A stretch of 39,218 nucleotides of DNA from Saccoglossus kowalevskii (taxonomy: Eukaryota > Hemichordata > Enteropneusta > Harrimaniidae): contig NW_003128371.1 in NCBI RefSeq assembly GCF_000003605.2, forward strand, positions 48,834 through 88,051, written 5' to 3'. Of the stretch, positions 3,392-37,936 are shown one piece after another. The translations under genes were made by a program, and so were the position numbers. The notes beneath the pieces were generated by a model that was not told the DNA's origin, did not search any database, and worked only from the letters and a program-made list of their open reading frames with translations. Position 1 is the first letter of the stretch. Every line of letters starts with the position of its first letter.

Positions 3392-5960
3392 CAACAGGCG
3401 GAGATTGTTATGCACCATCAACAACCCTCTTCTAAAGCCGAGGACTGGCGAAATCCTACGAAAGCGTGTGGTGATCACTGACAGGGCTGCATATCACAAG
3501 GGCATATGCACAATCACCCACAAGTGTCTGGGATCCAATAGGGGTAGGTTTATTCTAAATAACAAAACAGAGTTTGGCCAATTTGGCAGAGAGGGTGATG
3601 CCACAAGAGCAGTAGTGGCAAATAAACTGTACGTTCCTTGGTATGGATGGTTTTCGACCATCTCACCACAATTGCAAGGCTTCACGGGAAACTCAAGAAA
3701 TCACCTCGGGTGACATGACTGGAGGCGTCAAACGCATGGGAGGAAGTAGGGAGGACATTTGACTTCAGAAAAAGGCCAAAGAACAAAGTTAGGCAAATTG
3801 CCCAGAAAACCTTGAACTTGGGCAAGGACAGATCCAACTGGGCATGAATACCCAGCAGGAGGCCTGGGGTGATTGGGAGCTTTCTACACATGATCATGCT
3901 TTTGACTCTTGCTAGGCCTTTCAAAAGGGAGGAAAGGAAGACATTACAATGAAGGGAGTCAGGGAGATTGCACTCTAAATGAATCAAAAACATATTATTG
4001 AGGTATCGGCGGACTGAAATGACCAAGAAACGCGAACCGCAAACTGGCATACCACTATTGGATCCACATGAACTGGGCGGTATCCAAATTGTGAGCAAAA
4101 GTTTAAGTAGACCCTGCGATTGGTGGCATATGACAACTTGTTGGCATATGCATGGCTTCTGTTGAAGGTAACTGTTGAAGGGTTTCTTGACAAGCCATGG
4201 TTAATGTTTGCCATAGCAACTTGACTATCGGTATTGATCAAAATAGTATGATCCTACCATTTATAGCCCCAACACATAGCTGTTAGCACAACAGACAAAG
4301 CCTTTTTGTGATTAATGTGCAAATTAGCGGCAGCAGGCCAGTCATGCTGCCATGAGGTGTGTTGCCAGTTCCCATCATAGTAAATGCTGGAGGCTGAATT
4401 AGATGAGGCTGAATCTATGTGTGCCATTAAATAATGCCGTATCAACCACCATCAAGCTATGTCCAGTTTTAATGCAAAAGACACAATTAACTTATGGGAG
4501 AGCATGCGTTCTACCCGCTCTCACAACCCGGCATGCCCAGGCAAGCTTCTCAGCAAGAGTCTCAAGGTGGCAGTGGCTAGCACGTTTCATAGAAGCAGAA
4601 GAAACAAGTAAAGAATGTCAGCAAGGTAAGGTTTTTAGTATCAATATCAATTCCCAGAAAGGTCAATTTCTGGGAGGGCTCCACTACCTTATGCCACGCA
4701 ATACTAATCCCCAGTCGGTGAAGGAGTGTGATAGTGGTATTGAGTGCAAGAATACATGATGCGTAATCTGGAGTGATGATTAAGAAATCGTCAAGGTTCA
4801 CAACCATTGCCGAAAAACCTCGCCTAGCCATCATACGACACATGCTCGATGTTAGACAATGGAATATTTCCGGTGACAGTTGAACTCCAAATGGGAGTTT
4901 GGTATCATACAAGTCAGCGGAGTTAGACGCCCCTAGAAATTGCCACTGTAGCCCTGTTGCTTAGAAATTTGAGGGGTGAATAGGAACCAATTGGTAAGCC
5001 TACTTAAGGTCAAGTTTTGCCAGGAAATCACCCGATTGATTATCATTAACGGTTTGATAGTGAAAGTATTCATGCGTTGCATAATCATTCAGGGCACCTC
5101 CTCGTGGTTAACTGTAGTTATGGATAAGATGTACCGCATCTGACTCTGGCTCAGGAATTACCCCAAGGGCACTCACAATGGTCGGTTTACATCAAATGTG
5201 GTACATCACTGCCACATGGGAAGTTGTAATTAGCTTGGAGCTGTCTATATTGTCTATCTTAAAGTAATACAGACACCCAAGCAAATTGTTAGCAAGCTGA
5301 GATATTTTGTCTGTATATGCTAAGTAGGTGTGAAGGCCGTTCCCCCAAAAATTGTGGGATTGTATGAGTTCGTGCATGATACGGGCATTAGCCCCAAACC
5401 ACTTGTTGTTCCATTACCACCACCACAGCCGATTGAACAAAATCAACACAAGCGGATCTAAATCTACCCTGGCATTAATGTGTTTTGTTGATTCCGAGTC
5501 TTGACATTGGTTGACAGGTTCATTGAGTATAATAACTGTTGTAGTGGCGCTGCTCTGAAGTCAGCGTTATACATGAGGACAGCCATGTTGGACTCATTAT
5601 TATGGACTACGTTGATGATGGTGGTGGCATTTCGGTGAACGGCTCTAGCAGTTGTTGGGAGTCGAGTCCGGTGTGCTTCCTGTTGTGTAATCGACATCTG
5701 GTGAGCATCCTGTTGCATAATTGTGTACTTGGCCTTTACGGTTTTAACAGCCTCTTCTAATCGTCATTGTTGGCCAAGCGATGAGATTTCCAAAGTGGTG
5801 ATGTCTGTTTCACGCAGGAGACGCTATCAAAGTCGGCTGTAACTAGGTGGTGCATAGTTTCAGATCACAGCCACAGCTCATTCTGTGTTGCCCACTGTTG
5901 CCCACTGTTTCTCCACTGTTGCCCAATATTCTGGAAAGTTGAGAACAGAAATGTTGGCAC
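3392..5960 (-). mobile_element. DIRS-type retroelement fossil 1
   Basis: This is a decayed tyrosine-recombinase retroelement read right to left. Parts that can be recognised separately are a reverse transcriptase core at about 4577-4912, an RNase H region at about 4170-4480 and a tyrosine recombinase region at about 3500-4180. The RT core shows LPFG, a run of the LDDFLII type and FLGIDID. The RNase H region shows LHINHKKAL and TDSQVA. The recombinase region has an N-terminal SAM-like stretch and a C-terminal ATTA..LPNW block. Sequence at 5190-5720 is probably the leader or gag-like part. The order RT, RNase H, tyrosine recombinase is characteristic of DIRS-order elements. The copy is clearly broken in many places and old. 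Terminal repeats were not identified, so both ends are approximate. Confidence 0.75.
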
Positions 5961-19249: not shown

Positions 19250-19492
19250 GTTTTAAAAATAAACATAGTTTAACTCTGACTTTGCCCTTGTGATATAATA
19301 ATAATAATTATGTCCTTATGAAAGTTTGTTTCGATATGAATATGCATTGTCAAAATCAATTTTGTGTACAAACAAGTTTTAGGATTGAAACAGCAGTGGG
19401 AAAGCGGTCTACCGAATGTCCTTGATTGATGTAAATATCTTACAAAAACATTGGTGCCTAATTTGTTTAATTATTTTAAGGAACATAATTTT
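19250..19492 (+). repeat. Dispersed repeat, copy 1 (pair at 28080-28322)
   Basis: About 240 bp aligned in the same orientation with 28080-28322. Shared stretches include ctaccgaatgtcctt, gatgtaaatatcttac and aaaaacattggtgcct followed by atttgtttaattatttt. The similarity ends at acataatttcca/acataattttca. It lies directly after the RT fragment at 18.8-19.2 kb. Confidence 0.85.
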
Positions 19493-19559
19493 CATTTGGC
19501 TGAACAGGACGAACAGTTGTAGTTGTATGCATTGTTTTATACATTCATAGCACAATATA

Positions 19560-19905
19560 TGTGAAGGGTATATTTTATGACACATTCTGAGGCCAAAACA
19601 TCCTTTTACAAGTGTAATATTCATAGTCTGTGAAAGGGTATAATTCACATCACACATTGAGAGCAGAAAATCTGTTCGGGGGAAGGAGGATACAATTAAT
19701 ATTGGGAATGGAATAACTACACATATTGGGGACATAAAATTAGCATATCTTTGTGTAAAGGGTATAATTCAGGCACATATTGGGAGCAGCATATCTGCAT
19801 GCAAGAGGGTATAATTTATGGATCATATTGACCTTCAGGGAATGGGGTGTTAATTCAGGGCGCAAATCGAAAGCAGACTATATTTTTATGTTTCTCTCTA
19901 GTAAA
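19560..19905 (+). repeat. Degenerate tandem repeat with gggtataatt core
   Basis: Roughly five or six loosely spaced units carry a core like aaagggtataattca followed by cacatattgggagcag and a variable tail. They begin near 19564, 19637, 19756, 19806 and 19842, with a poorer one near 19683. Unit length varies from about 35 to 75 bp, so this is an old, eroded array. Confidence 0.65.
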
Positions 19906-20529
19906 AGTCGACTGGTCTGGATTACAGTGTGAATGACATGTTGGTATACTTTTTGGAGAACAAAATGTATTTATTCAGGTATAGTAAAAAATATTTGCAG
20001 AGGAGGTATGGTTTTCATGAATTCAGTCTTGAGTCACAAATGAATGTCAACCTGCATTCAACTGGGGTGCAACACTTTAAAAAGACATGCATTCAACAAT
20101 TTTGAGCATAGAATGTAAATTTGAACAGATAGGGAAGGCACTATTTTTGTTTTGATAACTTTGGACTAAACAGACATGATGACAAGTTTGGCACCAACAG
20201 GGTTATTATTCATAGTTATCGATTATCTGAGATCTTCTTTTCTGTTACGATAGCTTATTTATTTTATTGGTATGTTGTATTAGACTTACCTCTTTATGAG
20301 TTGATTGAAACCAGTCTAGTATTCCCATGGGATTTGGGAGATACATTACCAATGACATTGATTACAAGATAAATGATTTACTTCATTTAACACATACAGC
20401 AATGAACATTCTCACAGGGAGCAGTGACCATTGAATGTGTATAAGCAGTAATCAGTAGAAACAGTCAATTTTTTTAATCAGAATTAGGCAGAGGGTTTTC
20501 AACACGCCTATTCATATAGTTCATACTCA
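19906..20529. other. Intergenic stretch, nothing recognised
   Basis: No coding or repeat signature was seen between the degenerate array and the left end of the second DIRS-like element. Confidence 0.45.
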
Positions 20530-20610
20530 CCATAGACTCTGGTCAATCAAAATGACTATTTTGAACTGTAGGCATTAATCTGCGATTCAGCCAATGATGG
20601 AGAGAGAAAT
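20530..20610. repeat. Left inverted terminal repeat of DIRS-like fossil 2
   Basis: About 80 bp (containing ttttgaactgtaggc and aatctgcgattcagccaatg) are inverted relative to 23697-23778, with few mismatches. Confidence 0.9.
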
Positions 20611-20760
20611 CGTATATATTTTTTTCCACGTCACATAACACGTGACCAAGGCAAAGAGACCAGCTCCATCTTGCCTCCCCTTTTTTCTCAGTATACGAGG
20701 ACTTATAGCCAATTGCTACGAAAAGTAGGGTGGTTGAGAGGGAATAATGCCTAAATTCAA

Positions 20761-20810
20761 TACGTTCAATTACCCACCATAGACTCTGTCAAAATGGCTA
20801 TTTTGAACTG
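20761..20810. repeat. Internal second copy of the terminal arm
   Basis: The sequence tacgttcaattaccca, followed by gactctgtcaaaatgg and ttttgaactg, repeats the outer arm directly and is complementary to about 23740-23790. This fits the internal complementary region known for DIRS elements. Confidence 0.75.
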
Positions 20811-23696
20811 AAGAGTAAGACTCCAAGAAGTGGCGGGTTCCCGAGAAAATCAGAAAATAATAGACTACTTGAAAGATAAAATTACTTATGTCTACCACCT
20901 AGCTACGACCAGTGAAACACTGTGTCTTATCTTACCAGTGTTGTTCCCAAAGTAAAAACATACTACTGATAGGGTCAGCATTGCCCGAAGATGCTAGACC
21001 CAAACCTAATTATAACTAGCATTCCAAAGAGGCCGAAACAGTTCTGCGTGAGGGCATAGGCCGAAAGCAAGACCTGGCAAGACTTCTGTGACTCCCTAGT
21101 ATGTCTCTCATAGCAACTCCTCCTGATCCTCTTTGCCGACAATATTTGTCAGACAGGGGGTGACGATCAGCTGTGGATCATGCCCTTGAATTTGGTTCTT
21201 GGCGAGATTCGTGTCTTTAGCACAGCTTGATTATCCATAAAGGCAGCACAACCGTCCGAGAAGGACTGGGCCCCTAACTCAGAATGCCACCTGAGCTACA
21301 AAGAAGACTGTGTTCTGCGTCAAATATTTCAATGATGCTGATTCTAGCATTTCAAAGGGTGGTTTGCTTAGAGCTGACAACACAGCCGACAAGTCAAAAT
21401 TGGGAGGTTCCCTAGATTGAGCAGCTCTGGGCCTTTGATTATGAAAAACAGTAAACAGTCTCCTAATAACAGGACAATAATAGGTATAATGTTGTCCCCA
21501 AAGAGTTCTCAATGGCGGGTGACAAGGCTTACCTATAGCCAACGATTGCTGCATAGGATAAACCTAACTCATCAAACAGACGGACAAAAAACAGTGGGCT
21601 GGATCAACCTCCTTTCCACTACACCAATTAACGCTCCGGCTAGGACCTTGGCAGCCCACTCAAATAAACCTTCCACCTGTGCGAGTCTACTGAGAGCTTT
21701 CATGCGTGTAAGTGGTACACTGCTGGGCTCATTGGCAGTGTGCTGTCCAGTTGGGACAGCAGATCAGGAGTGTCCGGAAGCACTACTGGTGTTTTGACTA
21801 ACATTTCCAACAGTAGTAGAAGTAGCGTCAAGATGCAGGTATGTTCCTGTTTCTCCAGTACCCAGTGAATCGTCAGGAAGGAAGGAAAAGCGTAGACGTC
21901 CATGTGGGTCCACAGGATTGATAATGTGTCCATGGCCCATGCTCGTGGAGTCACATACATCTGGAGCTTAGCATTCGGGATGTGGCTAGCAAATCCATTA
22001 GAGTACTTGCCACTCCGTGTTCAGGAAACGGAGTCGCCGTGGTAGGGCCTCCCCCTGGAAGGTGGTGCAGTTAGCTCAACAGTGCATTCCAGGCACCAAT
22101 GGAGAATTTGCTCCGCCAGATCTGACAGCAATGAGGATCTGGTCCCCTGCTTGTGTTGGAGGCCACCACTGTGTTGTTGAAAGTGTATCAGTGCTAAGTT
22201 TACTGCTTTCAGTTCGAGCCAATTGATATGGCGACCCTCAATCCAATGCAGGGGCATTATTCCTTGGACTTGTTCGTCCATTATGTGCACTCCGATGTGT
22301 ATCCATTATCAGAGTCATCACCGTGGCGAGTAGGTCCAAAAGGTCCCCCTGCCTGAGGTTCGCAATTGCCGTCCTCCAGGGCAAGGCATCCCTCACTTGG
22401 TCCAAGAAAGTAACTGTGCTTGCTCCTGGCGGCTGTGCAGTGCAGCTTGGGGAGCTACCCTATGGACTGACATCGACCCAATGATGCACGTCAGTTTCTT
22501 GGAGAGACACAGAGGGAACACTGACTAGATGTTCGATTAAACTGCTCATTGCCAGGCAATGAGTCTGAGATGGACTCACAGTCTGCCACTGTGTCGAACT
22601 CCATGCCCAGAAAGACCTGTCAGGTGACGTGTCAGGTGTGGATGGGACTTCTTTAGATTTAATTAGTGTAGTAAATTAGTCTTACCTGCTCGACCAACAA
22701 TCCCTTGTTTGGTTGTGTAGTAACCAGTCATTTTGGTACAGGTTGATGTGTACCGACGACTGATGCAGCAGCAGCTCCACCTGTTTCAACACTCTGTTGA
22801 ACATGTATGGAGCCGTGCCTAACTTGAAGGGGAGCACCCTGAATTCAAATACTTGGACCAAATGGTTAATCAAAGGAGTCAATGACTTGCTGGGTGTATT
22901 GGTACTTGCCGGTAAGCATCGCTCAAGTCTAGAGAGGCTAACCAATCAAAAGGTGCACGGAAAGTAAAGCAGTGGTTGGCGTCTACATGCGTAACTGATC
23001 GAGGAACACATACTGATGTGACTTGCCTAGATCCAGAACTGGACGCCAGTCACCCATATCTCTGAAACTACAAACACGCAAGTTTAGAAGCCCGGACTTA
23101 CTGTCCGGTCTTCTACCCAGTGTATGGTGCCGTTTGTAAGTAAATTGTCTACCTCCTGTCGGATTGCTTCCATTTTGAGGGGATCCGCTTGCAGCTCCCC
23201 CTATAGAGGGACATAACATTTTGTGTCACCACCTGGAGTGTCCAGGGATTGGTTAACCGTGGCCTCCAAGCCAGAATACACCGATGCAATCTGAGTGCGA
23301 CAGGGATATGTGGATATGCTTTCCCTCCTTCTAGACCATTTCAACTACTTTAAGAAATGAACAAGGCATGCATGAGTGAAACACAATTACAGTTGAAAGT
23401 GAAACTGACACACTGAAGCCCTACTAATGTGCTCTAATGCGTCATCCAAGTTTTTTTTAGTGCTGTTATCCCACGAGACCCTACGTCTTACTGTTACCAA
23501 TGGTCACAGAAGGAATACCTCAAAATACTCAGTCGAAGAACTGCTGACTGAAATCCACTCTTTTGCTACAATGCACACTCGGTGCGGAGATAACAGAGTG
23601 AAGATGGGGCAAGAAGGCGATGGCCTCTTTGCCTCAGCAACACAGTACATGACGAGGAAGAAAATCTATGAGGTCATAGGGCTTCCCCTGACCTAG

Positions 23697-23790
23697 ATTT
23701 CTTTCACCATCATTGGCTGAATCGCAGATTAAAGCCTACAGTTCAAAAAAGTCATTTTGACTGACCATATATAGTGGGTAATTGAACGTA
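23697..23790. repeat. Right inverted terminal repeat of DIRS-like fossil 2
   Basis: This is the reverse complement of the left arm (cattggctgaatcgcagatt is shared). It continues about 12 bp further than the left outer arm, and that extension is found only in the internal arm copy at 20761. Confidence 0.9.
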
Positions 23791-23879
23791 GTGAATTTGA
23801 CTACCTCAATTTTTGAATGATATTCTCACACAGGTCAGATGTCATTCGCACTAAGGGAAGATTTTATACTGATGAATTA

Positions 23880-24012
23880 GGTGACCAAGTTTGATAAAGT
23901 ATGGAATAGAATTAGTAATAAAAGATATTGTGCACACATTAACAATTAATGACGACGACAGACATTTACTTTTAATATACCTTTTCCTTTTGTCTTTGAT
24001 ATGGACAAGGTA
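23880..24012 (+). repeat. Hairpin-tailed repeat, copy 1
   Basis: About 130 bp aligned with 29206-29369: gtgaccaagtttgat, ggaatagaattagtaa, gcacacat/aataacaatta, gacgacgac and cttttaatatacc. The last 35 bp (23978-24012) form a stem-loop. The outer stem is tacctt..cc with gg.caaggta, and the inner stem is closed by a ttt loop. Confidence 0.85.
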
Positions 24013-25119
24013 AAAAACATAGCAAAACTATTGAAACCTTGCCCACAAGGGAATACTTGATACAACTGGTTAAATTGAGACCAAGAATTGGCTAAATTCT
24101 TGAAATAGTGAAATTTTATAACACATAATTTTCATTTCTTACTGCCAATGATCACGCTAAGGTATACATTTGAGGGGGGGGGGTGATTTTGTGATGTTCT
24201 GCTTCCATCGATTTTGTTGATTTTATTTTACTTCAGAATAGCAAAAATAATTATTAAGGTAATGTGAAATAGGAAATGGTTCACTATTACTAGAATATGT
24301 GATAAGAAGTTGCAAAACAGTAAACATTCTGATATGCACAGTGTTTTGATTTATATGTGTTATTATAGATACCCATAAATATACTTTGTTAAGTATATAC
24401 TGGCATATTATTACTGTTCACGTCATATTGTTCTAATATATCAAATATATTCACAAGAAACTCATGGGCATCATTTTCCACAACAGGATTAAATAGTTCA
24501 GTACTTTCAATGTATTTCTGTTACCATGCTGCACTATTAAAACTGTTGATACCCAAATACATCTGGATTATAAATGATTCTCGTTCACATGACAAGATGG
24601 TGTTTTATTTTTTTGCCATTGATGGATTTTTGATTTGGTAAGAATGTAGCTTGCAAATGCTAATACTTGTATAATAATATTTTGATAACATGTCCAATGT
24701 TTTGTAACCCAGCACAAGGGAGTCCATTTATAACATCTAACCAATCAGTACTCACAATATTCTTTTGATACAGGTGAAACTGATTTGGTAATTGCATTAC
24801 ATTTGAGGATATTTCTTTTTGATTTGTTAGTCTGTCAAGTTTGTGTATTATTTCGTCCAAAAAATTATCAATTTTATGGGTAACAACATTCTACATGATT
24901 AGCTGACTGGGTAAATATTTCACTATTTATTTACAAGGTTTTTTTGTTTATTGTACTGTTGAGGCTGTGACTCGCATGCTCTCATTTCAGCATGTATTTA
25001 CAATTTTGTTTTATTCTAAAACTCTTTTTCTTAAGTCAAGGCATTCTAATAATAATATTGGAATGACACCTATATAATTTTGCAAAGTTCCATGTAACTT
25101 AATATTCTGGAAATTAGCG
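24013..25119. other. AT-rich intergenic stretch
   Basis: No gene was recognised. A run of about ten G residues lies near 24174-24183. The minus-strand open frame 24660-24860 (66 codons) has no recognisable domain. Confidence 0.45.
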
Positions 25120-25860
25120 AATACTGCTCACTAAACAATAACAAATACTATATATGCTAACTTATCATATAATTATCTTATGTGACTTAATCGGATATAA
25201 CCCATTGTACAGTAATAACTTTAGTATAATTATTATATGTGAACTCTAGGATATTACTTATTGTACATGTACAGTAGCAACTTTACAAAACTTATTGCAC
25301 TTAGTTCATAACTCACTGAACAATGAGGACTAGTACAGAGTAGAACTGCTTACAGTAGAATATCATTTTATAATGTTTAACAAACTAAATAAACTAAAAG
25401 AATGTGTTTGTACTGACGATAGTACAGTAAAACTCACAAGGAGTTGTTGACAACTTTGACCAGATGTAATTACCATACAATGATTCTCACAATCATCAAA
25501 TGTTAACTAAAGTACAAATAGAAGGCATTTTCTAATAATGAACTCCAGATGGCCCTCATTATAATAAGATGGAAAAACATACTCAAGTCACACAATGGAA
25601 ATGAAATGATACAGATACCGGTAGTTGTACAAAATTAACCCAATGCAGCTATTTGAGAAGAGTACTGCTCACAGTATAAACTGACAAATGTGTTTGAAAA
25701 TAAACTTTGAAAAAATCTAATTACCATTATAGTGACTTCACACAAAGGTCAAATATTAACTAGAGTAAAAACAAAGTCATTTTTCTATAATGAACTTAAG
25801 ATGGCACTGATTCCAATAAGATGAAATGTATATGTAATCACACAACAATGGAAAATTCCA
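25120..25860 (+). repeat. Degenerate tandem duplications (~70 bp and ~251 bp)
   Basis: Two old duplications lie next to each other. At about 25165-25295, a segment of roughly 70 bp ending in cagta.ca.ctttac occurs twice. At about 25300-25860, a unit occurs twice with an offset of 251 bp, measured at taattaccat (25467 versus 25718). Each copy continues with tgttaacta/tattaacta, taatgaact and gatggc.ct. No coding content was seen. Confidence 0.7.
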
Positions 25861-26009
25861 AAGGATTTCAAACCAACTATTACACCACGGATTTTCTCGT
25901 TAAATCCTGATACAGATTAGTAGGATTGAATTTCAAAACATTAAAATTGCTTTTCTTTAATCAAAAAAAAGAGATTTCACATTTACGTTTTAACTGAAAA
26001 ATAATTGCT

Positions 26010-26505
26010 CCATATCTCATTATTATGCATGTAAAGTGCACCATTAATAAACTTGGTTATCCTTATACCTTTGTTTATAACATATATAAATTTGAAACCG
26101 ATAGAGTAAAAATTACTTGAGTTATGGTGCCCACAAGCGAAAACCAATCAGTAGCCGTCTCTCATTAATTATGCAAGCAAAATGCACAAACATCGAACTT
26201 GGCCATCATTTCACGTTTGTTTATACCATATATAAATTTGTAACCGATCATGCAAGAATTACTCGAGTTGTGGAGCGCACACAAGCAAAAACCAATCAGT
26301 AGCCATCTCTCATTAATTATGCAAGCAAAATGCACAAACATCGAACTTGGTCATCTTTGCATGTTTGTTTATAACGTATATAAATTTGAAACTGATCGTG
26401 TAAAAATTACTTGAGTTATCGCACCCACAAGTCACGCCAACAACAACGCCAAAATCTTCCCCTTACTATACCTTCCACTTCGTTTACACTGCGGGCAAGG
26501 CAATA
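26010..26505 (+). repeat. Core-repeat element: ~3 units of 148 bp plus hairpin tail, copy 2
   Basis: Units with a 148-bp period (accaatcagtagcc at 26143 and 26291). Each contains ctcattaattatgcaagc, a ttgtttataacatatataa block and ttacttgagtt. A first, more diverged unit starts near 26010. The array ends in acgccaacaacaacgcc, then ccttactataccttcca...gggcaaggcaa, which resembles the tails at 23.98 and 29.33 kb. Some copies of a unit are almost identical, showing later homogenisation or expansion. Confidence 0.85.
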
Positions 26506-26599
26506 AAAGTGGTTCTAGTCACTTCAAATATATATTGATTGGTTCTACCTATTATTGACGTGAAACTTTTCCAAACTGAAAATAACCAATACTAGCATA

Positions 26600-27370
26600 C
26601 TGATGTATGCTAGAATTTAATATTGACAACAGCTTTGTTGTAATAAATATTCATCAGCATTCCAATGGGAATAAAATGTGCTTCCTTACTGGCAGATTTA
26701 TTTCTTTATTCGTATGGAGCAATTATTTAAAAACTTATGGTATGAAGCCAAGTCCTTTAAGTTCACACTGTGGTATATTGATGAACTACCTTCTATCAAC
26801 AATCCTAAATTTAGTTGTAACATTCTAATGATATAACCAGTTGAACTTAAGATTAAGAAGACTATTGGATCTGCTTCTTCCATTTTGTACTTAGACGTGT
26901 GCCTTCAATTTGACTCGAAAGGACCAACTTTCTGCCAGACTATATGATCAAAGAGATGGTACATTTTCCAGCTGAGTTGCCATACAAGAGTCTGTTGTTG
27001 CTGACTTGTGAAAAGACATTGTTTTTGTCAAAACACCAGAAAGTCTTTTGGCAGATATGATGAGCTTGTGGTTAAAAACAATATCACTATTACAAAGATG
27101 ATTTCAGATAGCATCAATGTCACTTGTCTGATGCAGACATCAGGTTTCATAAAGAGAGCATTTGATTATGGCTCAGAAAGGCATATGGCGAGTCCCACAT
27201 GTGGAGCAAGATGTGCCCTCTATTTTCAAAATGTACAACATCCATATATACGTCTCCTATGTACTGTATTGTAGTGTAATTGTCAGTTGCTTTGTTCTTG
27301 TGGATTGTTTGTCAATTGATTTCAGTAGTCTGTTTCATGTTCTTGGGCTTGTAAGTTTCCCTAAATGATC
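26600..27370 (+). mobile_element. Reverse transcriptase fragment, central and C-terminal part
   Basis: Plus-strand frames show MLEFNIDNSFVVINI, then in another frame IPMGIKCASLLADLFLYSYG, then YIDELPSINNPKF (the catalytic YIDD box, here YIDE), then SASSILYLDVCLQFDSKG and finally KSFGRYDELV. This is the order found in an abundant invertebrate RT family with the pattern IPMGTNCAPLLADLFLYSYEA...FRYIDDVLSINN...YLD. Near 27165, GIWRVPHVEQDV resembles sequence often found after this RT. Several frameshifts and stops make it non-functional. The family is probably the same as for the 18.8-19.2 kb fragment; assignment to Penelope-like elements is uncertain. Confidence 0.75.
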
Positions 27371-28079
27371 TATGGTTTAGTCTTTACACAGACACATCAT
27401 GTAGCTTCACTGATTTTAGAAACAGATTCCCATAAAAGTTTCCCAATCGATCACAAAAATATTTCTAACCTTCAACCACAGAATGTCGCATAGAATGCTT
27501 TAGCCTTTCCTAAACAACTTTCTTTCCTTCCCCCACAAATTTCCTGACTTCTTAACAATTATACCAACTTCCCAGACAACTTTCACAAACATATACATAT
27601 ACCAGAATCTGAGATGTGGTTTGCTTTTAACAATTGGTATTGTTGTTCAGTGAATACATGTACACAAATTCTATTTATTATTATCACATGGCATACAAGG
27701 GCACCTGATGTACATTCCAAGTCACATGATATTCCAAGTTACATGACATTCCAAGTCACATGACAATGTCTACAATCAGAAATAGACCTTAGACAAAAAT
27801 GGCCGCCGAAATCTCATTGAGAGGTAGAGAAGGACTAGACTTGTTTTTGTCCCTAAAATGTGTGTTCTATTTTCTACAGAATGATAGACATTTAAAGTTT
27901 AACAATCAATCCATCTGCAATTATAGAACTATTTTTCAAACAGAATTACATTCATAGAGATTCATTTAACAAAATATGTGAAGTTAACAGTTGAAAAATA
28001 GCTAAAATGTTTTTTTCACTGAAACTTTGATACAAGAAAAAACTATTTTAAATTACATTAATTTCATTTGGCTTTTTAA
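27371..28079. other. Intergenic stretch with short local repeats
   Basis: Near 27708-27765, attccaagt.acatga occurs three to four times in a row with a spacing of about 18 bp, forming a very short tandem array. No gene was recognised. Confidence 0.55.
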
Positions 28080-28322
28080 AATTTTAAATAAAGAACATAG
28101 TTGAACTCTGGTGACCTTGCCCTTTGTTATATAATATAATTCCCTTGAACATAGTTTGTTTCAATATAAATATGCATTGTCATAATTAATTTTGAATACA
28201 AACAAGTTTTGGGGTTGAACTAACAGTGGGGAATCAGTCTACCGAATGTCCTTAAAAGATGTAAATATCTTACAAAAACATTGGTGCCTTATTTGTTTAA
28301 TTATTTTAAGGGACATAATTTC
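28080..28322 (+). repeat. Dispersed repeat, copy 2 (pair at 19250-19492)
   Basis: Same-orientation match to 19250-19492 over its full length. It ends about 100 bp before the assembly gap. Confidence 0.85.
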
Positions 28323-28424
28323 CAGCTTTCTTCAAAGTAATTCAGATATTTTAGTATAAAAACAAATGTCTCATTAAAAAAAAAGTGCTGCATGTAGATG
28401 TGAATAGATTCATAAAACATGTTC

Positions 28425-29200
28425 NNNNNNNNNNNNNNNNNNNNNNNNNNNNNNNNNNNNNNNNNNNNNNNNNNNNNNNNNNNNNNNNNNNNNNNNNNNN
28501 NNNNNNNNNNNNNNNNNNNNNNNNNNNNNNNNNNNNNNNNNNNNNNNNNNNNNNNNNNNNNNNNNNNNNNNNNNNNNNNNNNNNNNNNNNNNNNNNNNNN
28601 NNNNNNNNNNNNNNNNNNNNNNNNNNNNNNNNNNNNNNNNNNNNNNNNNNNNNNNNNNNNNNNNNNNNNNNNNNNNNNNNNNNNNNNNNNNNNNNNNNNN
28701 NNNNNNNNNNNNNNNNNNNNNNNNNNNNNNNNNNNNNNNNNNNNNNNNNNNNNNNNNNNNNNNNNNNNNNNNNNNNNNNNNNNNNNNNNNNNNNNNNNNN
28801 NNNNNNNNNNNNNNNNNNNNNNNNNNNNNNNNNNNNNNNNNNNNNNNNNNNNNNNNNNNNNNNNNNNNNNNNNNNNNNNNNNNNNNNNNNNNNNNNNNNN
28901 NNNNNNNNNNNNNNNNNNNNNNNNNNNNNNNNNNNNNNNNNNNNNNNNNNNNNNNNNNNNNNNNNNNNNNNNNNNNNNNNNNNNNNNNNNNNNNNNNNNN
29001 NNNNNNNNNNNNNNNNNNNNNNNNNNNNNNNNNNNNNNNNNNNNNNNNNNNNNNNNNNNNNNNNNNNNNNNNNNNNNNNNNNNNNNNNNNNNNNNNNNNN
29101 NNNNNNNNNNNNNNNNNNNNNNNNNNNNNNNNNNNNNNNNNNNNNNNNNNNNNNNNNNNNNNNNNNNNNNNNNNNNNNNNNNNNNNNNNNNNNNNNNNNN
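28425..29200. other. Assembly gap (776 Ns)
   Basis: Unresolved bases. Repeats lie on both sides (28080-28322 and 29201-29369), so the gap most likely contains repetitive DNA. Long open frames spanning it are artefacts. Confidence 0.99.
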
Positions 29201-29370
29201 GAACAAGGTGACCAAGTTTGATGAAGTTTGGAATAGAATTAGTAAAGTTATCATGCACACAATAACAATTATTAACGACGATGACAACGACGACGACGAC
29301 GACAACGCCGGACAAAATTTTTCCCTTAATATACCTTTCCCTTCCATCTTTGATGGTACGGGCAAGGTAA
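29201..29370 (+). repeat. Hairpin-tailed repeat, copy 3
   Basis: Aligned with 23880-24012 from ggtgaccaagtttgat onwards. It includes an expanded (gac)n tract at about 29274-29303 that is shorter in copy 1. The tail at 29332-29369 folds into a stem: tacctt with aaggta, then ccc with ggg, then ccatc with gatgg around a ttt loop. The left part of the copy is lost in the gap. Confidence 0.88.
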
Positions 29371-29833
29371 AAATAAAAATCCACAACATATTTCCATATC
29401 ATTAAGAATGATTAACAGACTTCAAGGTAAATAACTGAGATGTATATTAACAGCAAGTTTGCAAATTTCAAGAACTAAAATACAAATTGTTTTGACATTA
29501 AAAACATTAACAAAGGTAGTTACAAAAATCAAATGTGAGAAAACCAGAGGTCCACTCAAGTAATCATATCAACAGTCAGACAGTCAGTTTTTAATTAGCA
29601 TATTCTCAAATATCAGGTTTGACTAAAAGTGAGCAAAAATATATAACTGTAAATAAATCTGTGATAGCATGGTGACATTAAAACAGTTATTATTAAAATG
29701 ATGTTCTTTGACATGTTAAAATATTTTACGAAATTGTGGAATAGATACATGTATGGTCATCACAAGTTTGATTATTGTGTGTGTTGTGTAATCACAAACA
29801 TACATGGAGAATTATTAACTATTTTTATCACTT

Positions 29834-30647
29834 TTACTTATTTGGTTCAATCTTTCTCCATGTATCAGGTCCTGTTATTTCATACTCGTCAGTTTTGTAA
29901 CCCATTAGATGATTAACTCTGTGGTGATGTACAGCATCATATATTGATGGCACCACCCTAGATATTGGTTTCACCTTGGCCATCATGCAAAGTTGGTCAT
30001 TATAGTCCCACTGCATGTTTGACATACGATGAGCGTAGCGATTTGGAAACTGCAAATCATTCAGTCTCCAATTGTAATCTTTTTCTATATCTTTTTCCAT
30101 CTCATGACGACTTGGTAGTTGCTGTGAGCCGTCTAGAATAGACATTATGAATAAGGCCTGACAATCAAATTGTGGAAATGGACATATCACACTACATATT
30201 CCTATAAAAGACAGATATGGAAACTGTGTGTGTATTGCATGTTTGTATAGTGATGTCACTCGAGAGTCAATCACTTGTACATTACACTCGGGGGATAAAA
30301 AGGGAAAAGAATATTTGTAACCAGTACAAAGCATTAAGACATCAATTTCTTCTTCTTGATCATTTTTAAAAATAACTTTGTTATCTTTTAAGTATTTTAT
30401 TCCCGGTGCTTGGCTCATATTTTCTGGTAGAGCAGAAACTAGCGGATTCTTGTTGTGGCTTAAAATCACTCGCCTTGCACAAGGCGCAATATCAAGTGCC
30501 ACATCAATTCCTGATGCACCAGCTCCAAGTAATACAATGTTCTTGTCTTTGTAATCTTCTGGATGCCGGTAGTGATGACTGTGTACAATGTTGCCATGGA
30601 AACTACTCATTCCTTGGATGTTTGGAATTTGGGGTTCAGCGTAGTGT
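29834..30647 (-). CDS. FMO coding exon 4 (terminal)
   Basis: 814 bp including the TAA stop. The acceptor is ttttttag|ACACTAC. It codes residues 168-438 with the FMO signature (184-194), the NADPH Rossmann motif (209-214) and LCTGY. The C-terminus is ...RKIEPNK, without a peroxisomal or membrane signal. No AATAAA is visible in the first 240 bp downstream. An ATTAAA variant lies at 29590-29595 (minus strand). Confidence 0.95.
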
Positions 30648-33600
30648 CTAAAAAAAAGAAATGGTTTTATTACATCAAGTTGTGAATACTAACAAAGTAA
30701 CCAAAACAAGCAGCCTGTCGGCTGAGATAGCTCCGCTGTTAGCAATGCACATGGCAGTTAAAGAACAGAAGATATCATTAGAAAATGAACAAATCTGAGA
30801 GAGGTCCACATGTAGTACCTATATGTATAATATATCAAAGCAATTGGACTTGCGGTTTTTAACAAGAAGTCGAAAATATCACTTTTTACCAAAAATGACA
30901 AAAATATTCACCAAAATTAGAAAATTAAAGATATCATTACAAAATGAACAAATCTGAGAGAGGTCCACATGTAGTACCTATATATGTAATATCAAAACAA
31001 TTGGACTTGCGGTTTTTAACAAGAAGTTGAAAATATCACTTTTTACAAAAAATTACAAAAATATTCACCAAAATTGGAGAATTGAAGATATCATTACGAA
31101 ATGAACAAATCTGAGTAAGGTCGACATGTAGTACCTATATATGTAATATCAAAGCAATTGGATTTGCGGTTTTCAACAAGAAGTTGAAAATATCACTTTT
31201 CACCAAAAATGACAAAAATATTCACCAAAATTAGAGAATTGAAGATATCATCATGAAATGAACAAATCTGAAAGAGGTCTACCCAAGGTACATATACACC
31301 AAGTATCAAAGCATTCAGGCTGGTAGTTTTCAAGAAGAAGTCGAAAAAATAAAACATTGACACGGACGACGGACAATCACTCATATGATAAAGCTCCGCT
31401 CGACAAAGTCGACTGCGGAGCTAAAAAACCACAAGCATTTACACAAATAAATACAAATAATATTAATACATCACCATCGGAAAGCCGCCACAAATTGCTC
31501 CTATCATTTATTTTTTGAAAATTCTTTTTAGTATTTTCAACTTCATGTTTTTGCGAGCAATTGCAACTCTCTCAAGAATAAAAATTGGTGTTTCTCAAAT
31601 AAACAAACCCATGTGATTCTGTTTATGATTTGTACACAATGGTGTCAGACAATGATAATGTGAATATTGATCAAACACATTTGAATGGTTTAAAAAACAT
31701 GCACCCATACAATACATATTCTTACCCATTGCAAACAATGACTGCATCAAACTGTTGAGTCTCAATATCATCACTAGACTGTTCAATGCCACGGAAACCA
31801 ACATCCCATATTACTTGGTTTTCTTTAGAACTAGTAATAACTGGTTTGATATGGTCAACGCACGTTTTGAACTAAAAACAAAAAAAGACAATTGTACATA
31901 TTGTTTTTAAAACTGGTTTTATGGTAATCCAACACACCGTGAGTGGTACTGGAGAAATCAGACATGTCAAAGGTTGTGTTACAGTTTTCCAACACACCAT
32001 GGGTGGTTTTGGAAAGTCTGACATTCCAGTGCATGGTTTTAACGTCTGACATACAGTTGGTAAAAAATTAGAGAAGTCCAACACAGCAAGAGTGAGTTTA
32101 GAGAAAGCTGACATACTGAGGGTTTTACAAAGCAGAAACAGATTATTTACCTTAATGAATTTGTTGAGATCAAAATGTTGTGCATAATCTTTCAAGTATT
32201 GCAGAACTTGTTGGTGGGTGAGAAATGATGGGAGTGTCTTGTCAAAGGGAAAATCAGGAAATGCCATCACTTCCTTTGGTAAGTTGGTTCTGAAAACAAT
32301 ATGTTGAAGTAATCTGAGCCACGAAATAATAATTGGGATATATGTTGCTCTGGCAATGAAAGTGACGCAAACTAATGTTTACATTTATTTTGGGTAAAAC
32401 ATCATAAAAAGTTGTTTTTCCGAAATCTTTACTGCATGTTTGTAGACATCACTATTTTTAATTCTCCCAACCTCATTCTGGCAATGAACGGGATTTGTTT
32501 TTCCAACTGTTTCATTTGTCAATTGTGAATAAAAATGAAATGTGTGATACTACGGATAGAATTACCACAAAATTGCGTGAAATTTTGTCAATACTATAAT
32601 CAGAAGTATATTGAAGACCTCATAAATGAATCATTTTTTAATCACAGGTGATAAACTGACAGTAAAGCACTGTACAAGTAAAAATGTTCTGGTATGCAAA
32701 TAAATATGCTAATAAAATTAGGATTCACACACACAAATAACAATAGTGATGTCTTTTGAAGAAAGAGTTGCAGATTGGATACATAGGATAAATAGAATCT
32801 CAACATTTATGATATCAGATTTACTAATCTTGTGTTTGAATTTTACAAAAATTACTACCGGTACACCCATTCAATAAATCTGATATCATGGGTATGCATT
32901 GGATATCACATCAGTCTTAAACTGGACAATTTCCATGAATAAATGTTGTTAACTGCATAACTGGTTGGAACAAAAATTTGTTTCTTGTTCACAGATGTTC
33001 AACATTTTTTTAAATTTTCCTGAGGAAGGGGGTATTCAATGCATTTGGGCAGAAGCACCAGCAACCCACTACCCTCAAACCCATAAGGTGTCACGGCCAG
33101 TCTAGTTTGAAGAAAAAGAATACTCTCAACCCACCCCATCCAATCCTACCACACCCCATCCCCCCATAAGTAAGCACATATCATGTTTGATAATTTGAAT
33201 TCCAAGGAGCATTAACCTTTTCACCACCAGACTTCCTTGCCCAAATTTTTCTGACTTTTTTTCTTATATTCTTCAATATTTTTGAAAATTAACCCTAATT
33301 TTTAAGCCAACAGACCAAATTTGAGTCAATTTTCAGTTTTTACTCAAAAAATGTGGCTATGACACGAAGAGCATAGAAAACTTTCCCTGGTATATTTCAA
33401 AGCAAAATCGCCATCCAACTGTAAAGACCGTCGCTGATTAGCTCATTAAGTATGAGGATCGTCCCCTACTGTTAGATTCGTCTTAAGTGGGCGTGACTGC
33501 AAGACGGCGCCAGCGAGATTCGAAAGCCAACCGTTTAGTCAAAACCCAAGCAGTTAGCCAATTCGCTAGCGAGTTTGCAAATTGGCTGCCCCAATACTTC

Positions 33601-34636
33601 TGAGACTTGCTGTAAGAGATATGGCTCTAGAAGCCCAATCTTTAAAACAAAATGGCTGCCAGTCAGCCATTTTGAATCCAATCTGAAAAATAAAATGACG
33701 TGCATCAGGAACCCATAATGTCTAATGTATGTTTGAACGAAATCCATCTGTAAACAACCGAGAAATGCTTGATTTTTAGGATTTTTTAGCACAAAAATGG
33801 CCACCATTCGGCCATCTTGAATCAGACCGTGAAACAAATTGACGTGCATATGTATAATATCATGTATGATGTATGTGTGAAGTTTGATTGTGATTGGTCC
33901 AGACATTTCTAAGATACAGGTTCGTACGCACACACGAACACACAGAGGTCAAAACATAAGTTTTGTGTCCGAACGAGGACTAATAATAATGATATCATAA
34001 CACAAGCCAAAATAGAGATGTATAAAAAAAATCATCTAACATAAATCAGTCTGAAAATGAAATTTTTTTACCATTTTCCATAACATATGATATTTGGTAT
34101 TCCAACGGCAATAACATAAAAATGAACGATATACAATTTACTTCAAACTCACTTCAAAGGCAGTTTAAGCCAAATTCAAATTTAGCATAACTGAACATGT
34201 TACTGCAAATATGCGTATTTCATTACATTTTTGATATCGATAACAAAAGTATGACAAACATAAGATGTATTATTCAATTCCACTCAAAACTCTTTTAACA
34301 TATTTAAAATGTGTTTCATCTCCAAATATTATCATGACAGTCCCATACACTACAAAGTACATGTATATGTAGGTTGTGAGCCCTTAATTTATCTACCCTT
34401 GTTAATCATGCAACTCACTTCAGATTCTTGTACATACTGGAATGGACAGTGAATCCATATTTATTTTTTTCTACATCTTCAGTGTAAATCCATGTACCGC
34501 CGACTTGCTCTTCTTTTTCAAATACATGCGGTTGAAAGAGATGTGGTTTACTCGCTAAATGTCTTGCGGCGCACAGTCCGGCTGCCCCGGCTCCAATCAC
34601 AGCTACCTGTAATATCTTTGATGCGTCCCCGGCCAT
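29834..34636 (-). CDS. Flavin-containing monooxygenase, GS-OX-like, 4 coding exons
   Basis: Encodes a predicted 438-residue NADPH- and FAD-dependent monooxygenase, a family that oxygenates soft nitrogen and sulfur nucleophiles. Coding exons on the minus strand are 34636-34419, 32289-32151, 31871-31726 and 30647-29834. The introns have phases 2, 0 and 2, all with GT-AG ends. FAD-binding GAGAAG is at residues 15-20, VGGTW at 45-49, and NLKTNLPKEVMAFPDFPF at 71-88, including N75, which probably corresponds to the conserved active-site Asn of the family. The FMO signature FHGNIVHSHHY is at 184-194, the NADPH-binding GAGASG at 209-214 and LCTGY at 274-278. The length and VGGTW fit the short FMO GS-OX-like group. 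There is no hydrophobic C-terminal anchor like that of vertebrate FMO1-5, so it is probably soluble or only loosely membrane-associated. No defect was seen in the reading frame or splice sites. The orthologue was not determined. Confidence 0.95.
30729..31422. mobile_element. Core-repeat element in FMO intron 3 (~157-bp units, terminal hairpin)
   Basis: The 8-bp end agctccgc (30729-30736) pairs with gcggagct (31415-31422). Between them are about four units with spacings of 159, 157 and 157 bp, measured at aatgaacaaatctgag (30784, 30943, 31100, 31257). Each contains ccaaaattag, gaagatatcat and acaagaagt.gaaaatatcac. The right end is a strong hairpin, agctccgc-tcgac-aaa-gtcga-ct-gcggagct (31392-31422), preceded by gacacggacgacggacaatc. 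This layout resembles the pearl elements of bivalves and Helentron-derived non-coding elements, but no protein is encoded and the class is inferred from shape only. Confidence 0.82.
31726..31871 (-). CDS. FMO coding exon 3
   Basis: 146 bp. The acceptor is tttttag|TTCAAA and the donor AATGG|gtaaga. It covers residues 120-167 and part of 168, including FDAVIVCNG, the end of the first nucleotide-binding lobe. The reading frame is maintained into exon 4 (CNG/HYAEPQIP). Confidence 0.92.
31925..32125. repeat. Degenerate minisatellite in FMO intron 2
   Basis: Three full and at least one partial unit of the form tccaacacaccatggg followed by tggttttggaaa and tctgacat, at about 31928, 31988 and 32076, with variable spacing. 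They fill most of the 279-bp intron. Open frames across them are not coding. Confidence 0.7.
32151..32289 (-). CDS. FMO coding exon 2
   Basis: 139 bp. The acceptor is ttttcag|AACCAAC and the donor TTAAG|gtaaat. The exon completes codon 73 and runs to residue 119. It contains TNLPKEVMAFPDFPF, a well-conserved FMO segment. The splice junction restores this motif exactly, which confirms the intron 1 boundaries. Confidence 0.93.
33560..33985. repeat. Palindromic ~144-bp tandem repeat in FMO intron 1
   Basis: Two units about 144 bp apart start at 33648 and 33792. Each opens with a small inverted repeat: aaaatggctg..cagccatttt (perfect, 33649-33674) in the first, and aaaatggcc..ggccatctt (one mismatch) in the second. 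Each continues with gacgtgcat and atgtatg. The element seems to end near gtccgaacgaggactaataat (about 33966-33986, one block). A minus-strand open frame of 132 codons across it is a by-product. Confidence 0.75.
34419..34636 (-). CDS. FMO coding exon 1
   Basis: Codes residues 1-72 plus two bases of codon 73. The start ATG has A at -3 and G at +4, a strong context. The exon holds the FAD-binding Rossmann motif GAGAAG and VGGTW. The donor is CTGAA|gtgagt. Confidence 0.93.
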
Positions 34637-37345: not shown

Positions 37346-37456
37346 AGTGCACCAATCATGTCTGTAACTGTAACATACTTTGAACTTCATCAATGAATGC
37401 TCTCTTTCCCAACAAGTTTGTGTGATAACCAAGATGACAGTAAATAAGTAATTAAT

Positions 37457-37936
37457 GTTGACAGACCTTGGCAATGAACCCATACTGTTGACAGACCTTG
37501 GCAATGAACCCATACTGTTGACAGACCTTGGCAATGAACCCATACTGTTGACAGACCTTGGCAATGAACCAATACTGTTGACAGACCTTGGCAATGAACC
37601 AATACTGTTGACAGACCTTGGCAATGAACCCATACTGTTGACAGACCTTGGCAATGAACCCATACTGTTGACAGACCTTGGCAATGAACCAATACTGTTG
37701 ACAGACCTTGGCAATGAACCCATACTGTTGACAGACCTTGGCAATGAACCCATACTGTTGACAGACCTTGGCAATGAACCCATACTGTTGACAGACCTTG
37801 GCAATGAACCCATACTGTTGACAGACCTTGGCAATGAACCCATACTGTTGACAGACCTTGGCAATGAACCCATACTGTTGACAGACCTTGGCAATGAACC
37901 CATACTGTTGACAGACCTTGGCAATGAACCCATACA
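37457..37936 (+). repeat. 30-bp minisatellite, 16 near-identical units
   Basis: Sixteen consecutive 30-bp units (gttgacagaccttgg followed by caatgaacccatact). The only common variation is C or A at one site (gaaccCata versus gaaccAata), with A in three units (37561-37620 and 37681-37695). The near-perfect copies imply recent expansion. Because 30 is a multiple of three and the unit lacks stops in most frames, several long frames of 160-205 codons are open on both strands. They end just outside the array and are not genes. Confidence 0.98.

Follow-up and report, generated by a model that had tools for sequence, protein, structure and literature searches.

Elements in the window

The window analysed here, a stretch of 39,218 nucleotides from the hemichordate Saccoglossus kowalevskii (contig NW_003128371.1, positions 48,834 to 88,051), holds three transposon-like repeats with related tails. 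An initial annotation, made from the letters alone, suggested from compensatory base changes that the terminal hairpin of these tails had been under selection as a fold, perhaps as a 3′ recognition signal as in Helitrons or Helentrons. Very probably the tails are instead the left, 5′, ends of HINEs, which are rolling-circle transposons of the non-autonomous Helentron type. The plus strand would show these ends in reverse, and the stem would have been kept as inherited sequence, without compensation. All three elements, and all the parts of them described below, are annotated on the minus strand.

Element B (28094..29374) is a complete copy of a family that we call F1, and it runs from right to left. 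Six full-length copies align with its left part from 28094 to 28420 or 28421 (87.7–96.1% identity) and realign with its right part from 29201 to 29373–29375, on either side of an assembly gap of 776 bases (28425–29200). Its 5′ end carries a hairpin (29332..29369), whose distal arm is read as the 5′ subterminal inverted repeat (subTIR) and whose proximal arm is read as the companion inverted repeat (IR). The subTIR core, ACCTTGCCC on the minus strand, lies at 29360..29368, and the IR arm (29332..29341) can pair with the 5′ subTIR except at one mismatch, as seen both in the sequence and in the fold. Just inside this end comes a GTC-type microsatellite (29275..29310), recognized by its sequence, whose GAC and AAC runs vary among copies. 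At the other end, about 20 bp inside the border, ACCTTGCCC is found again, this time on the plus strand, as a 3′ subTIR (28114..28122), in company with a short palindrome (28096..28110) in which six of seven positions are complementary when counted by eye.

Element A (19262..24016) is an older copy of F1 that a later insertion, at about 20486–23792, has broken up; its aligned pieces are 19262–19494, 20217–20485, and 23805 to at most 24021. The fold and a comparison with its relative L004 show that its 5′ hairpin (23978..24012) has one arm shorter by 3 bases. Close to the two ends of the insertion itself, which is about 3.3 kb long, lie inverted repeats that agree at 86% over 95 bases, and each junction shows the letters GAATT, which may be a target duplication. 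The third element (26010..26502) is HINE-like and belongs to a distinct family, F3. It is made of tandem repeats (26010–26431) followed by a 5′ end at 26469–26502, and no second border was found for the 26010..26502 element.

Copies, borders and insertion site

The genome searched has 4830 contigs and 572 Mb in all. Searching it with 401 bases around the 24.0 kb tail gave 41 matches (40 candidates scored out of 1016 at first look), and most of the 40 aligned loci have the tail ...TTCCCTTAATATACCTTTCCCTTCCATCTTTGATGGTACGGGCAAGGTAA in common, with few changes, and then diverge; two of them, L021 and L035, are without the 3′ part of this common tail. A 15-base pattern lying outside the hairpin, of which it overlaps only the first two bases, matches the genome 163 times as against 4 in the control, and a pattern with fixed outer arms and a C at position 32 matches 260 times as against 10. 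The repeat carrying the hairpin is present in hundreds of copies. The annotated hairpin could be checked against the element border, and it does sit at the very border: the copies, element B included, diverge about 4 nt past it.

The opposite (left) border, AACATAGTTGAACTCTGGTGACCTTGCCC, is common to the copies with sufficient upstream DNA and falls at 28094 in the window, where ACCTTGCCC matches the distal arm of the hairpin in reverse complement. Among 80 distinct loci scanned for both ends, 53 had no recognised 3′ end in the stretch examined. The two 9-mers are identical in 17 of the 25 copies with both ends readable. The eight others are altered either at the 5′ end only (L045, L053, L061, L075, L093 and L105) or at the 3′ end only (L072 and L089), and L085 has a change common to both ends. 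No three-way covariation of 5′ subTIR, IR and 3′ subTIR was found among these 25 copies. A stretch of the window at 33612–33887 matches two interior parts of the full-length copy L072 at about 79%, so that L072 would contain either an internal duplication or a foreign repeat.

An A run flanks both ends of the element, and the exact border is therefore blurred. At the 69 of the 80 distinct loci with a readable end, the first position after AAGGTA is A in 68, the second is A in 46 and T in 20, the third and fourth are A in 66 each, and the bases are mixed from the fifth on. On the left side, CATAG is preceded by two A's in 19 of 19 copies, and the next base outward is A in 15 of the 19. Flanks were joined in 20 cases, one of them partly N, and set against the collected loci and the window; for two of the 20, relatives spanning the junction were found there. 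The comparison of L050 with L105 places the insertion within an A run, with no clear duplication to be seen, and L083 and L043 are too divergent for the border to be placed. The bases at the border are consistent with insertion at TT.

The hairpin and its relatives

The stem-loop letters and pairings first reported are indeed present at 23978–24012 and 29332–29369. Folded as single-stranded DNA, the hairpin of element B reaches −8.7 kcal/mol (z −4.60), a value matched by none of 200 shuffles, and that of element A reaches −4.4 kcal/mol (z −2.31; 7 of 200 shuffles match), its inner stem being open in the DNA fold and closed in the RNA fold. The weaker hairpin said to close the 26.0–26.5 kb element could not be recovered, since 26465–26502 folds at chance level (z 0.34; 117 of 200 shuffles match).

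The differences between the two window copies are of two kinds. The change from C-G to T-A at pair 8-31 is real. The supposed paired substitution in the inner stem, however, involves a 3-base deletion that slid the register. In the 24.0 kb copy the 3′ arm is the arm of L004 minus exactly 3 bases, so its inner GATA would most simply be what a deletion left of GATGATA, and the inner T-A pair would most simply have come about through a change in the opposite arm, without matched substitutions.

Other versions of the hairpin also fold. The T-A class of F1 gives z −3.76 (2 of 200 shuffles match), and the C.T class, despite its broken pair, gives z −3.42 (0 of 200). In a sister family, F2, position 7 is a G and is paired where F1 has a T.C mismatch, and the bodies are unlike F1; the sister-family sequence read by eye folds at z −5.32. 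F2 copies are few and decayed, and related copies were distinguished by their flanks. Patterns for this family stay at chance level genome-wide (15 matches against 19 in the control, or 57 against 45 when length was allowed to vary), and no count given here depends on F2, whose consensus is the by-eye one.

Family F3 behaves differently. Its alignment holds 25 tails (24 genomic and that of the window) and 10 stem positions, with L128 poor in one arm and L141 gapped. It contains 37 cells with a change in a single arm and no cell with changes in both arms, and 30 of these one-sided changes sit at the eight positions where the consensus has a standard pair. All 25 tails have A.C as the second outer-stem pair, which is numbered 2-38 in F3 and 2-37 in F1. 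Since the F3 consensus is unstable (z −0.15; 73 of 200 shuffles match) and folds without the inner stem, a family can spread without this fold.

Covariation along the stem

Is the stem then maintained by paired changes? Three samples, which overlap and are not independent, were counted copy by copy without regard to relatedness. The anchored sample consists of 79 tails found through the pattern outside the hairpin, with 12 pairs. The outer-arm sample draws on 100 matches listed of 260, from which the 85 of 38-nt length were used and 15 excluded, with 8 inner pairs. The full sample has 100 tails and 14 pairs; a few of its tails were shortened by local alignment or scanning, missing cells were skipped, and L009 and L027 duplicate rows already in the set. 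The anchored tails have 57 pair cells with one member changed and 6 with both members changed (1 still paired), where independence expects 2.3 doubles. The corresponding figures are 52 and 5 (3 paired; 2.2 expected) for the 85 tails among the matches listed, and 84 and 15 (8 paired; 5.0 expected) for the 100 tails. Doubles are thus somewhat above independence, and about half of them are unpaired.

What the initial annotation saw is probably explained by ordinary decay through the transitions C to T and G to A: where both strike one C-G pair, the result is a T-A pair that looks compensated. This explanation is compatible with the HINE reading. All 8 paired doubles in the 100 tails are changes from C-G to T-A, seven at pair 13-25 and one at 8-31 (the 24.0 kb copy of the window), and the unpaired C.A intermediate is common, with 33 cells in the same tails. 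The anchored sample has 24 C.A mismatches in its C-G pairs as against 11 T.G wobbles, the opposite of the pattern left by selection for pairing, although part of this excess comes from one pair, 10-29 (8 C.A cells), whose G follows a C. The point that decay alone accounts for less readily is the number of paired doubles at pair 13-25, which exceeds a null that takes the tree into account.

That tree was built from element bodies alone and covers 78 of the 100 tails over 430 columns; low-scoring rows and those with little body sequence or with many N were excluded, and element B was one of these. The internal branches of the tree carry 12 pair changes, all single: 6 pair-breaking, 5 pair-restoring, with 3 returns to C-G among the latter, and 1 pair-keeping. 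Seven of the 12 fall at pair 13-25 and three at 3-36, and some of this back-and-forth perhaps comes from the parsimony rule. On terminal branches there are 91 pair changes, 6 of them double, and 1 of these 6 keeps the pair. At pair 13-25 the internal branches show, among others, two changes from C-G to C.A and two from C.A to T-A, so that the unpaired state was itself inherited. In 1000 random placements on the tree, the 7 paired double cells observed compare with 5.04 ± 4.90 and are reached 177 times; the share of paired cells, 0.920, compares with 0.898 ± 0.040 and is reached 421 times. Overall, therefore, there is no significant covariation: the copies show no excess of paired changes over single ones, whether in the 100 tails, on the 78-row tree or in F3, which is the outcome that the initial annotation itself named as refuting its claim, and selection on the fold is not supported. 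Pair 13-25 alone of the 14 stands out, with 6 paired-double cells (p 0.011, uncorrected), and its mutual information gives p 0.093.

Selection on the fold in the source elements, with the paired changes as compensation, is accordingly an unlikely account. It can draw on the several versions that fold better than their shuffles (copy B, the T-A and C.T classes of F1 and the by-eye sister) and on pair 13-25, where C.A passed to T-A on two internal branches. It has to contend with the wholly single events of the internal branches, with the C.A excess over T.G, with a C.T class at pair 13-25 that is a common subfamily (8 of the 85 among the matches listed), and with a family, F3, that was amplified with a consensus lacking a stable hairpin. 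The narrower proposal that the inner pair 13-25 covaried under selection in source elements, so that the transposase would in part recognise a folded single strand at the 5′ end, is likewise doubtful. In a literature search limited to one collection, no formal covariation test of a Helitron-type hairpin was found.

Polarity and a model for the 5′ end

The assignment to Helentron-type elements made at the outset holds, as does the place of the hairpin at the border; it is the polarity that has to be reversed. The hairpin has a terminal arm, a GAC-rich run adjoins it on the inner side, and an inverted subTIR lies about 20 bp inside the other border. By analogy with known elements, these together identify the hairpin as a 5′ subTIR/IR pair. 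Two hallmarks of HINEs and DINE-1 are found here: a 5′ subTIR a few nucleotides from the terminus with its complementary IR, and a GTC-type microsatellite inside the 5′ end. A 3′ termination hairpin as in Helitrons is very improbable: the Helraiser terminator does sit at the 3′ end (PMC4778049), but the terminal subTIR arm, the adjacent microsatellite and the internal subTIR of the other end make up the 5′ layout of DINE-1.

In the HINE reading, then, the terminal arm would serve as the 5′ subTIR and the inner arm as the IR that pairs with it, followed by the GTC-type microsatellite, and the inverted subTIR with its small palindrome would mark the opposite, 3′, end. From the DINE-1/Helentron and Helraiser literature, we infer that a Rep/helicase supplied by an autonomous relative most likely finds the 5′ end chiefly through the subTIR sequence and nicks at the adjoining T run, where the rolling-circle copy would start. 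The stem would persist since both arms are conserved as sequence from the source elements, and not through compensation.

Several observations weigh against this reading. No reading frame was found in the F1 element, so that the 5′ and 3′ names are given by analogy. The shared subTIR core is 9 bp long, shorter than the 11–15 bp stated for HINEs and DINE-1. The region of the 3′ palindrome (28092–28125) folds at chance level against shuffles (z 0.41), and pair 13-25 stands out as described above. The search for an autonomous partner carrying the F1 ends yielded none: Helitron_like_N had 8 matches at 7 places in the genome, and in the roughly 3 kb upstream of 3 of these 7 no F1 end scored above the best of 20 shuffles, one score being equal to it. 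At one locus, L118 (G000:C3364:13200-16300), a frame with a DSHSHGPNG stretch lies upstream of a Helitron_like_N match; this stretch may resemble the deubiquitinase domains of such elements.

The 5′ end of these HINEs thus appears as an ordinary one, with covariation unsupported beyond one suggestive pair, 13-25. From two copies with matched letter differences little can be concluded about selection for a fold, because ordinary transitions turn C-G pairs into T-A and small deletions slide the register. Were the 5′ fold selected after all, this would suggest that Helentron transposases read structure at the 5′ end, and the families described here, whose bodies differ but whose 5′ ends are related, lend themselves to studying that question.

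Other features of the window

Beyond these elements, the minus strand has an exon-like stretch that matches flavin-binding monooxygenases at 29834–30688 (PF00743, E 1.2e-28) and a reverse transcriptase fragment at 4577–4957 (PF00078, E 1.3e-8). There are two tandem arrays: a 30-base unit repeated 16 times at 37456–37935 (99% matches), open in several frames, and 3.2 copies of a 157-base period at 30768–31279 (91% matches).

Comparison with known elements

Cg_HINE of Crassostrea gigas has a 5′ subTIR, an IR and a microsatellite on the left, and a 3′ subTIR with a palindrome on the right (PMC7492417). At the level of layout F1 resembles it in its 5′ subTIR with complementary IR, its GTC-type microsatellite and its inverted 3′ subTIR; a further likeness is the presence of tandem repeats, as seen in family F3, and the insertion into oligo-T without duplication may be another. 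Unlike Cg_HINE, the F1 copies of the window are not reported to have a central tandem array (copy B has a gap), and the subTIR core is of 9 bp. The same paper mentions element-specific changes in the subTIR, IR, stem and loops.

In Drosophila DINE-1, the 5′ subTIR lies 0–2 nt from the end with a partial IR alongside, then comes a GTCY microsatellite, and the 3′ subTIR is internal. As DINE-1 has no open reading frame, its 5′ and 3′ ends were also named by analogy (Yang and Barbash, PMC2374699). The F1 element shares the terminal 5′ subTIR with partial IR, the GTCY-rich microsatellite and perhaps the TT insertion (PMC2374699, PMC4067079). It differs from DINE-1 in that the subTIRs of the latter are of 13 bp and of another sequence, and its 3′ stem-loop has stems of 7–11 nt. 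Compensatory mutations were suggested earlier for DINE-1 (Yang and Barbash, PMC2374699), but that argument concerns the 3′ stem, whereas the present question is about the 5′ stem. In mite HINEs the placement of the subTIRs is alike, the 5′ ones lying 2–4 nt from the end and the 3′ ones 38–60 bp inside, but the subTIRs are palindromic and a separate IR is lacking (PMC4067079).

Helraiser is of the same rolling-circle class and has a hairpin near one end. When its 3′ hairpin is deleted transposition is reduced but still occurs, and its left end is essential. Unlike in F1, the Helraiser hairpin stands near the 3′ end, the termini are 5′-TC and CTAG-3′ and are described as being without inverted repeats, and the target is AT (PMC4778049).

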